DNA of 64,000 bases from Halorubrum sp. CSM-61 (lineage in GTDB: Archaea; Halobacteriota; Halobacteria; Halobacteriales; Haloferacaceae). A program made the translations under genes and the position numbers. Below, piece by piece: positions 4,073 through 55,536 of this stretch. The notes below the pieces were generated by a model that was not told where the DNA came from, ran no database searches, and saw nothing but the letters and a program-made list of their open reading frames with translations. The DNA lies in NCBI RefSeq assembly GCF_003781945.1, contig NZ_RJJW01000002.1:124015-188014 (forward strand), written 5' to 3'. Each line of letters begins with the position of its first letter. The stretch's first letter is position 1.

Positions 4073-4536
4073 TGATCGGTCGTTTATAAGTGATCGAGTG
4101 ATGTTGCTGTCGGCTGTTTATACGTGATCGATGGCACTGGGGTGAACACCCCCAAAGCCCCAGCCGCTCGGCTGTACGTGATCCGTCTCTCGGTGGCAAA
4201 CACGTCCAAAGCCCCAGCCGCGAGGGCTCGCGCGACTCGCTTCGCGCTTCAGTCGCTCGCGGTGCTCGCTCCTTCCAGTGCTTGCGTCGTCGTGCTTCGC
4301 CCTCGCGACTGCCCCTTTGAGTCCCACCCGCACCGCAACCGCACAGCACCTCTCACCTCCCCAGCCTCGTCGGTGGTCCTCCGCGTTGCTCCGGACCACC
4401 GACTCCCTCGCGCGGCGCTCCTCACGGCCGCCGGTGGCGGCCGCTCGGAGGCGCGCGCCACCGCATTCGTCTTTTATAAGCGATCGTCACCGTCGCTCAC
4501 GGCTATTTAAATACTAAATCGCCACCGCCGATCTGC
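4073..4536 (-). ncRNA. Structured dispersed repeat, copy C (minus strand), candidate ncRNA
   Basis: Read on the minus strand from 4536 to 4073. It shares with two other copies (6391-6691 and 55040-55488) a TATA-like CTTATAAA (4473-4480), a GCGGTGGCGCGC block, a first hairpin (arms 4425-4432 and 4436-4443), a second hairpin (arms 4369-4379 and 4393-4403), the blocks GGCTGGGGAGG and GGGTGGGACTCAAAGGGGCAG (20 bases or fewer each when split), and the main stem (arms 4299-4311 and 4215-4227, 13 pairs with one G-U). The 3' terminal block containing GGCTGGGGCTTTGG is present twice (4205-4220 and 4151-4166). It lies between two convergent genes. Open frames across it are low-complexity Arg/Ser/Pro and not credible. 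The RNA nature is inferred from compensatory changes. Confidence 0.65.
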
Positions 4537-6390: not shown

Positions 6391-6691
6391 CTTATAAATC
6401 GAACTGCGGTGGCGCGCGCCTCCGAGCGGCCGCCACCGGCGGCCGCGAGGAGCTCGTGCGAGGGACGCCGCGAGCGACCGGAGGGAGCGAGCGGCGAGGC
6501 TGGGGAGGTACGAGGCGCGGTTGCGGTGCGGTCGGGTGGGACTCAAAGGGGCAGCCGGCGAGGCGGGCGCAGGTGACGTAAGCACCGCAGGAACGAGCGC
6601 AACGAGTGACGAGGAGCGCAACGAGCGTGCGCCCGCCTCGCCGGCTGGGGCTTTGGAAGTGTTCGCCGTCTCGCCATTGGAGATTTATAAG
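6391..6691 (+). ncRNA. Structured dispersed repeat, copy A (core form), candidate ncRNA
   Basis: Shortest of three copies. TATA-like CTTATAAAT at 6391-6399, then the conserved GCGGTGGCGCGC block about 15 bases on. First hairpin: 6426-6434 with 6438-6446 (9 perfect pairs, loop ACC). Second hairpin: 6466-6471 with 6491-6496. Main stem: 6552-6571 with 6628-6647, 20 perfect pairs. Outside it, GGG faces GGG and CAAAG can pair with CTTTG, giving a symmetric internal loop closed by a short outer helix. The enclosed loop keeps the block GACGTAAGCACCGCA. A mirrored TTTATAAG ends the element at 6684-6691. It lies between ilvA and the following same-strand gene. Confidence 0.7.
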
Positions 6692-6774: not shown

Positions 6775-7155
6775 ATGGGTAACAGTTCCAAGACGGACCT
6801 ACAGCGAGACATCCTCCTCACGTGGTGGGAAAATCCGAACGCGACGAACAAGGAGATCGCGGACGCGTGTGACTGTTCGGCGTCGTACGTCAGCCAGATC
6901 AAGAACCGGTTCGACGACTACAACGAATTCGAAGCGATGATGGACAGACAGGACGCGGAGTTAGAGCAGATGTTCGGAGAGGGTATCTTCGGAAACAGTG
7001 AGACGGCACCGGCGGCAGTCGACCGGGGAGGACCGGGAGTCGCTGAACAGTGGAACGAGATCCCGAACAACATTCCGGGACTGTTGATCAAGCTCATTAT
7101 CGTGGTGGTACTCGGATACGCGGCGGTCCAAGTCGGGATGACGCTCTTTCTCTGA
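6775..7155 (+). CDS. Membrane-tethered helix-turn-helix protein
   Basis: 126 residues. Residues about 5-50 form a helix-turn-helix (Asn-Lys-Glu-Ile-Ala-Asp-Ala-Cys-Asp-Cys-Ser-Ala-Ser-Tyr-Val-Ser pattern) with the look of an archaeal winged or homeodomain-like DNA-binding unit. An acidic linker runs to a single hydrophobic helix at about 103-123 that ends the protein. This is the architecture of a small membrane-anchored DNA-binding protein with its HTH in the cytoplasm. The upstream 75 bases are AT-rich, unlike the surrounding DNA, and probably hold the promoter. No partner gene is adjacent; the target is unknown. Confidence 0.72.
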   Translation: MGNSSKTDLQRDILLTWWENPNATNKEIADACDCSASYVSQIKNRFDDYNEFEAMMDRQDAELEQMFGEGIFGNSETAPAAVDRGGPGVAEQWNEIPNNIPGLLIKLIIVVVLGYAAVQVGMTLFL

Positions 7156-54937: not shown

Positions 54938-55039
54938 CACCTCGATCGAGCGCGCTCGCGTCCTTCCGGCACACCGACTTTTTCGCGTCGATCGCGTCTC
55001 GGAGCGGTCACCGACTGATCGATTACGGGAGTGAGTATC

Positions 55040-55488
55040 GCAGATCGGTGGTGGCGAATCAGTACTTAAAGGATCCGTGAGCGATGGCGACGATCGCTTA
55101 TAAATAACAACGCGGTGGCGCGCCCCGGTGAGCGGCCCGTAGGGCCGCGAACCGACGGTGCGAGGGAGTCGCTGGCGGCGACAGCCGCCAGCGACAGGGC
55201 GAGAGCGAAGCTCTCGCTAGCAACCGGACGTAGTCCGGTGACGAGGCTGGGGAGGCGTGAGGCGCGGTTGCGGTGCTGTGCGGGTGGGATTCAAAGGGGC
55301 AGTCGCTGTGGGCGGCGCAGGCGACGCAAGCACCGCAAGGAGCGAGTAAAACGAGCGACTGAGGCGCGCAGCGAGCGTGCGCCGCCCACAGCGACTGGGG
55401 CTTTGGAGGTCTTCGCCGCAACACCGTCGACCACTTATAAACAACCGACAGCAACACCACTCGATCGCTTATAAACAACCGATCAATC
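55040..55488 (+). ncRNA. Structured dispersed repeat, copy B (longest form), candidate ncRNA
   Basis: Longest of three copies. It opens with GCAGATCGG and a TTAAA-type box, then CTTATAAAT (55097-55105) and the conserved GCGGTGGCGCGC block. First hairpin: 55132-55138 with 55142-55148 (loop GTA). Second hairpin: 55168-55179 with 55184-55195, 12 perfect pairs. Two more small hairpins follow (GCGAGAGC-GAA-GCTCTCGC and ACCGGAC-GTA-GTCCGGT). Main stem: 55300-55319 with 55378-55397, 20 perfect pairs, differing from copy A at six base pairs, each compensated. Two CTTATAAA boxes (55434-55441, 55468-55475) close it. It lies between two convergent genes. Confidence 0.7.
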
Positions 55489-55536
55489 CACGTGCAATAC
55501 CCACTCCCGAAATCGCTCGTCTTCCGTCTGTTCCAT

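Follow-up and report, generated by a model that had tools for sequence, protein, structure and literature searches.

Pneumococcal BOX elements are modular, high-copy intergenic sequences with stable predicted folds. REPINs show conserved feet, compensatory changes in their hairpins and tandem clusters (PMC3116915), and PATEs, small mobile repeats (SMRs) and switch repeats are known in Haloquadratum (PMC3119063). The window analyzed here, a stretch of 64,000 nucleotides from Halorubrum sp. CSM-61, harbors three copies of a repeat whose family is apparently abundant, non-coding and undescribed in haloarchaeal chromosomes: a literature search that included the literal core sequences and covered subscription journals thinly found no published description. 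The explanation that we favor, at slightly less than an even chance, is a high-copy, non-coding interspersed repeat family of Halobacteria that resembles REP/REPIN sequences and has a three-hairpin body, is non-autonomous, is homogenized by gene conversion and folds as single-stranded DNA.

A sequence-only reading of the window had described three copies with ordered conserved blocks. The copies are present where that reading placed them, and the blocks are above chance (3-4 found, 0.06-0.07 expected). Their extent was, however, set too small, as outer inverted repeats flank some copies, including the one placed at 55040. Copy A spans 6392-6690 and copy B, outer repeats included, 55020-55515. 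The features are the following:

6392..6397, + strand: 5' TTATAA of copy A (sequence and family profile)
6406..6416, + strand: first conserved block of copy A, GCGGTGGCGCG
6413..6459, + strand: P1 of copy A, with outer helix, tandem GA/GA and apical GC hairpin
6458-6465, + strand: GCGAGGGA of copy A, preceding P2
6466..6495, + strand: P2 of copy A, with tandem GA/GA motifs
6496..6508, + strand: conserved block GAGGCTGGGGAGG of copy A
6509..6543, + strand: G-rich linker of copy A, ending in GGGTGGGACT
6544..6655, + strand: P3 of copy A; 20 perfect pairs, the foot being CAAAG/CTTTG, a 3x3 internal loop of GGG/GGG and an interior that is conserved and rich in purines
6645..6669, + strand: 3' block of copy A, CTGGGGCTTTGGAAGTGTTCGCCG
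6685..6690, + strand: 3' TTATAA of copy A
55020..55042, + strand: left outer inverted repeat of copy B, CGATTACGGGAGTGAGTATCGCA (sequence and family count)
55098..55103, + strand: 5' TTATAA of copy B
55112..55405, + strand: whole core of copy B, its P2 with extra hairpins
55112-55122, + strand: first block of copy B
55243-55255, + strand: GAGGCTGGGGAGG of copy B
55292-55296 / 55401-55405, + strand: P3 foot of copy B
55493..55515, + strand: right outer inverted repeat of copy B, TGCAATACCCACTCCCGAAATCG (sequence and family count)
4206..4464, - strand: whole core of copy C
4454-4464, - strand: first block of copy C
within 4309-4320, - strand: 5' foot of P3 of copy C
4206-4217, - strand: 3' block of copy C
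4152..4163, - strand: second, tandem 3' block of copy C

The pairing ascribed to the three copies was confirmed. Copies A and B have 20 perfect P3 pairs each, and the positions at which they differ (4, 7, 8, 10, 13 and 14) are all compensated; copy C retains 13 P3 pairs, one T-G among them. The upstream hairpins keep their pairing despite differing in sequence and length.

The view of a three-copy element had to be abandoned. In the 3.7-Mb Halorubrum genome to which the window belongs, the core CAAAGGGGCAGNNG is matched exactly at 84+80 = 164 places, while a reversed-pattern control has 1+1 = 2. A search of Halorubrum and other haloarchaeal genomes, which the same reading had suggested, detected relatives by core and pattern matches. 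The exact core is present in 49 of 53 Halorubrum genomes, with at most 162 matches per genome, and is nearly absent elsewhere. GGACTGAAAGGGGC, a version with the G-C-swapped foot that was discovered via Halobaculum relatives, matches 185 of the 342 Halobacteria genomes sampled, with 56 of 81 genera represented and a maximum of 83 copies per genome among the 342; controls gave about zero. By core and pattern counts, several species have few or zero copies. Copies are intergenic wherever checked. In G000, contigs C4, C7 and C13 end no more than a few hundred bases from an element copy, and the assembly breaks there are probably due to the repeats.

Relatives occur in named plasmid records of Halobaculum, Natrinema, Halorussus, Haloarcula, Salinigranum, Halorientalis and Haloplanus; plasmid copies are few, and the halovirus search gave 0 matches. 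A virus or plasmid was therefore rejected as the vehicle. Nine exact core matches in viral contigs, and those in non-haloarchaeal records, are probably due to chance.

The anatomy of the family was drawn from 287 distinct copies. In its 5' part, TTATAA is followed by GCGGTGGCGCG, P1, GCGAGGGA, P2 and GAGGCTGGGGAGG; the 3' part comprises a G-rich linker ending in GGGTGGGACT, then P3, CTGGGGCTTTGGAGGTGTTCACCG and a TTATAA that is thus present on the 3' side too. P3 has 16-20 pairs, a foot (CAAAG/CTTTG in this Halorubrum-type anatomy, [C/G]RAAG across the family), a GGG/GGG internal loop and a conserved purine-rich interior, and both the loop and the interior are conserved between genera. Extra 3' blocks are found nearby in 60 of 279 copies and were interpreted as a tandemly repeated unit of about 55 bp. 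In three copies (L059, L117 and L146), the P3 interior is inverted relative to the arms; an inverted interior was found in L348 as well.

Some copies show further peculiarities. In about 20, the hairpins contain an inserted double hairpin some 50 nt long (GCCGGCGGC-loop-GCCGCCGGCTGCCAGAGG-hairpin-CGCTGG) that resembles the small mobile repeats targeting PATE palindromes. The insert lies inside P1, P2 or P3 (loci L049, L053, L074, L090, L095, L145 and L163) and is apparently reversed in L095. At five loci of related genomes (L331, L334, L338, L345 and L347), a shared and conserved stretch (GGATGGGTGAAAGCCCGGCAGCG...) precedes an element that differs in its P3 interior.

The data strongly support selection for single-strand folding of the strand listed above. 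Unique hairpins contain 185 GA/GA and 0 TC/TC 2x2 internal loops, and 51 GNA versus 10 TNC triloops. Among interior mismatches of P3, G.T outnumber A.C by 59 to 15, or by 30 to 11 if stem position 4 is left out; the respective counts are 41 and 13 in P1 and 13 and 9 in P2, which by itself has no wobble bias. When whole P3 hairpins were aligned locally, irregular interior included, the counts were about equal (87 and 85); the P3 wobble bias is located in the outer stem. The listed strand has the higher predicted stability in 120 of 120 copies under both RNA and DNA parameters, and the latter result is the fairer one because RNA parameters favor G.U.

These asymmetries bear on the possibility that the element is palindromic DNA shaped mainly by mutation, in which quasi-palindromes are perfected by template switching or hairpin copying and the fold is under no selection. 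The inverted P3 interiors, an in-place inversion at ilvC (see below), the extra hairpins and the high perfection of the stems are in line with such an origin. Mutation of this kind would, however, show no strand preference, in conflict with the 185:0 and 51:10 ratios; furthermore, conservation extends to the unpaired blocks, and the GGG/GGG loop is retained between genera. We consider this explanation very unlikely.

Pairing is also maintained between lineages of this old family, even though almost all stem bases vary. Besides CAAAG/CTTTG, the foot occurs as CGAAG/CTTCG and, in other genera, as GAAAG/CTTTC, the arms being compensated in all types. In genome G015, CGAAG replaces CAAAG in 70 of 75 matches, and the CTTCG partner arm was found at the G015 loci read. 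The foot has switched lineage-wide, whole genomes in concert, with compensation. Across genera, and with anchors selected without regard to pairing, the columns of foot and stem pair more often than in shuffles, which serve as a guide rather than as a probability because the copies are related. Foot position 1 is CG in 97 and GC in 22 pairs, and stem position 2 is AT in 95, CG in 13 and GC in 12; pairs were counted by script, and stem lengths are too variable for a single alignment. The initial proposal of selection on an RNA fold was thus borne out as regards single-strand folding on that strand, with compensation across species and genera, but not as regards its RNA nature.

Which nucleic acid folds was approached through loop type and wobble pairing. 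Triloops prevail over tetraloops (136 versus 40), and the 40 tetraloops include 20 GNNA, 3 GNRA and 0 UUCG. With a closing G-C pair, GNA and GNNA loops form extraordinarily stable DNA mini-hairpins (PMC4686876). G.U would account for about 2% of P3 stem pairs, compared with 15 of 99 canonical pairs (15%) in the SRP RNA of the same genome; RNA-type loops and G.U are not a strict requirement of RNA, so that low values lower the RNA claim and do not exclude it. Loop type and G.U rate fit single-stranded DNA better than RNA.

Transcription signals were also considered. A TATA box had been placed about 25-30 bases before each conserved block; TTATAA actually begins about 14 nt before the first block, and in the family profile the 5' motif peaks at -14 to -9. 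A promoter with TTATAA as its -27 TATA would put the transcript start inside P1. In other genera, where few full-length relatives were read, no TTATAA was seen ahead of them, and no conserved promoter was found for the element. Tandem gene contexts are sense in 41 cases and antisense in 43, and a role as 3'-UTR or terminator was rejected for this lack of sense bias. Clustering of flanking genes revealed no recurrent partner except small families.

A structured non-coding RNA family, in which each copy would be transcribed in whole or in part and the three-hairpin fold would bind a protein or regulate neighboring genes, accounts for much of the above: the one-strand fold that tolerates G.T over A.C, the tandem GA and purine-rich internal loops, the compensatory foot changes and an RNA fold z-score of -4.6 against shuffles. 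Some probability stays with RNA because the P3 interior is deeply conserved. The strand asymmetries are, however, equally explained by single-stranded DNA, and the minus strand, too, beats shuffles (z -4.4). Loops of the GNA/GNNA instead of the GNRA/UNCG type, the scarcity of G.U, the badly placed TATA-like motif, the even sense and antisense contexts and the species with few or zero copies speak against an RNA; in Rfam 15 no match reached gathering scores, and relaxed E-values gave chance-level matches only. An RNA family is, on this balance, unlikely. Single-stranded DNA is favored because of the loops, the G.U rate, the promoter placement and the 41/43 contexts, and the element probably acts as folded single-stranded DNA, not as an ordinary RNA gene.

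The family is probably mobile DNA. One form of mobility would be that of a classical non-autonomous transposon, either a MITE, bounded by terminal inverted repeats, or a PATE that an IS200/IS605 Y1 transposase mobilizes. The PATEs and other small repeats of Haloquadratum provide a precedent. Of 225 copies, 31 are flanked by outer inverted repeats on both sides and another 22 on a single side; most copies, however, lack them. A link to Y1 transposases (PF01797) was rejected: G072 and G350 keep 67 and 26 matches, respectively, without a Y1 gene, and no complete element was found beside the Y1 loci examined. Around the Y1 loci of 11 genomes, element hairpins were absent save for isolated short motif matches, and such hairpins are missing from the only Y1 element in the window's genome. 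No linkage to a transposase or recombinase was found, no clean empty site was seen, and near-empty sites L071, L215 and L081 show no target duplication. The diversity of the copies and the existence of one old site are unlike recent transposon bursts. We regard a classical transposon as decidedly unlikely.

The old site lies downstream of ilvA, and most of the Halorubrum species examined have an element there. When species with about 90% identity in ilvA are compared, the hairpins at this site prove to have been replaced. On the 3' side of the ilvA-site element, the window contains a gene (6775-7155) whose 126-residue product may contain a helix-turn-helix; the next gene differs in many relatives, where it is cysS-like. 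At ilvC, occupancy varies, and in one species (L212) the element is inverted in place between the same outer inverted repeats. Divergent element doublets 46-49 bp apart form large palindromes in one genus of family f3 (L330, L343, L344 and L349); inverted doublets were not seen in Halorubrum. Neither replication-strand bias nor orientation domains were detected in G015 (p 0.25), which counts against lagging-strand insertion, and inspection of G022 by eye gave no clear pattern of copy positions.

A tentative mechanism can be outlined for the REP-like reading. The folded species would be single-stranded DNA exposed during replication, repair or recombination, and three parts of it (foot, GGG/GGG loop and purine-rich tip) may be recognized by a putative trans-acting protein. 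Copies, being non-autonomous DNA, would spread slowly. The concerted switching of the foot, the replacement of hairpins at one fixed site and polyploidy, which is described for haloarchaea in PMC4056108, suggest that hairpins are swapped, and the family homogenized, by gene conversion between dispersed copies in polyploid cells. Besides the lack of orientation domains, two observations count against this reading: conservation of the P3 interior across genera exceeds what a REP needs, and mobility is at odds with the lack of a linked transposase or recombinase, of an empty site and of a target duplication.

A broader proposal, which we consider doubtful but worth stating, is a class-wide system in which each genome has more than 100 dispersed elements that fold as single strands and are kept functional by concerted hairpin exchange and lineage-specific, compensated foot switching. 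If true, it would imply that a dedicated protein recognizes the elements and possibly that recombination maintains a nucleic acid of a new kind, be it single-stranded DNA or RNA. The orthologous ilvA site is a natural covariation experiment, with wholesale hairpin replacement and pairing kept. Compensatory stems with conserved loops may arise in folded DNA; hence, covariation alone is no proof of RNA. As haloarchaea are genetically tractable, both the choice between RNA and DNA and the recognizing protein are directly testable.

Compared by description alone, the element shares with pneumococcal BOX its modular, high-copy, intergenic and stably folding nature, and differs in being archaeal and in its module plan. 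Like the structured RNAs of Rfam 15, it has covarying stems and conserved loops, but it matches no family there and its loop and G.U statistics differ. With the PATEs, SMRs and switch repeats of Haloquadratum (PMC3119063) it has in common that it is haloarchaeal, transposase-free, palindromic, targeted by palindrome-inserting small repeats and found in either orientation at one site; PATEs, however, have near-terminal palindromes like IS605 ends, while the element has hairpins throughout and no IS605-type relative was found. The likeness to REP/REPIN sequences (PMC3116915) includes palindromic units that are intergenic and number in the hundreds, feet that are conserved, a variable, compensating hairpin, possibly an arrangement as inverted doublets in some genera, and a predicted folding as single-stranded DNA or mRNA. 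Unlike them, the element is archaeal and about 250 nt long, and comprises internal blocks and a GGG/GGG loop besides its three hairpins; these hairpins are swapped at a fixed site, and no linked RAYT or other Y1 gene was found. Altogether, the element lies outside REP, PATE, MITE and all Rfam families and yet, even without a RAYT, works in a REP-like manner.
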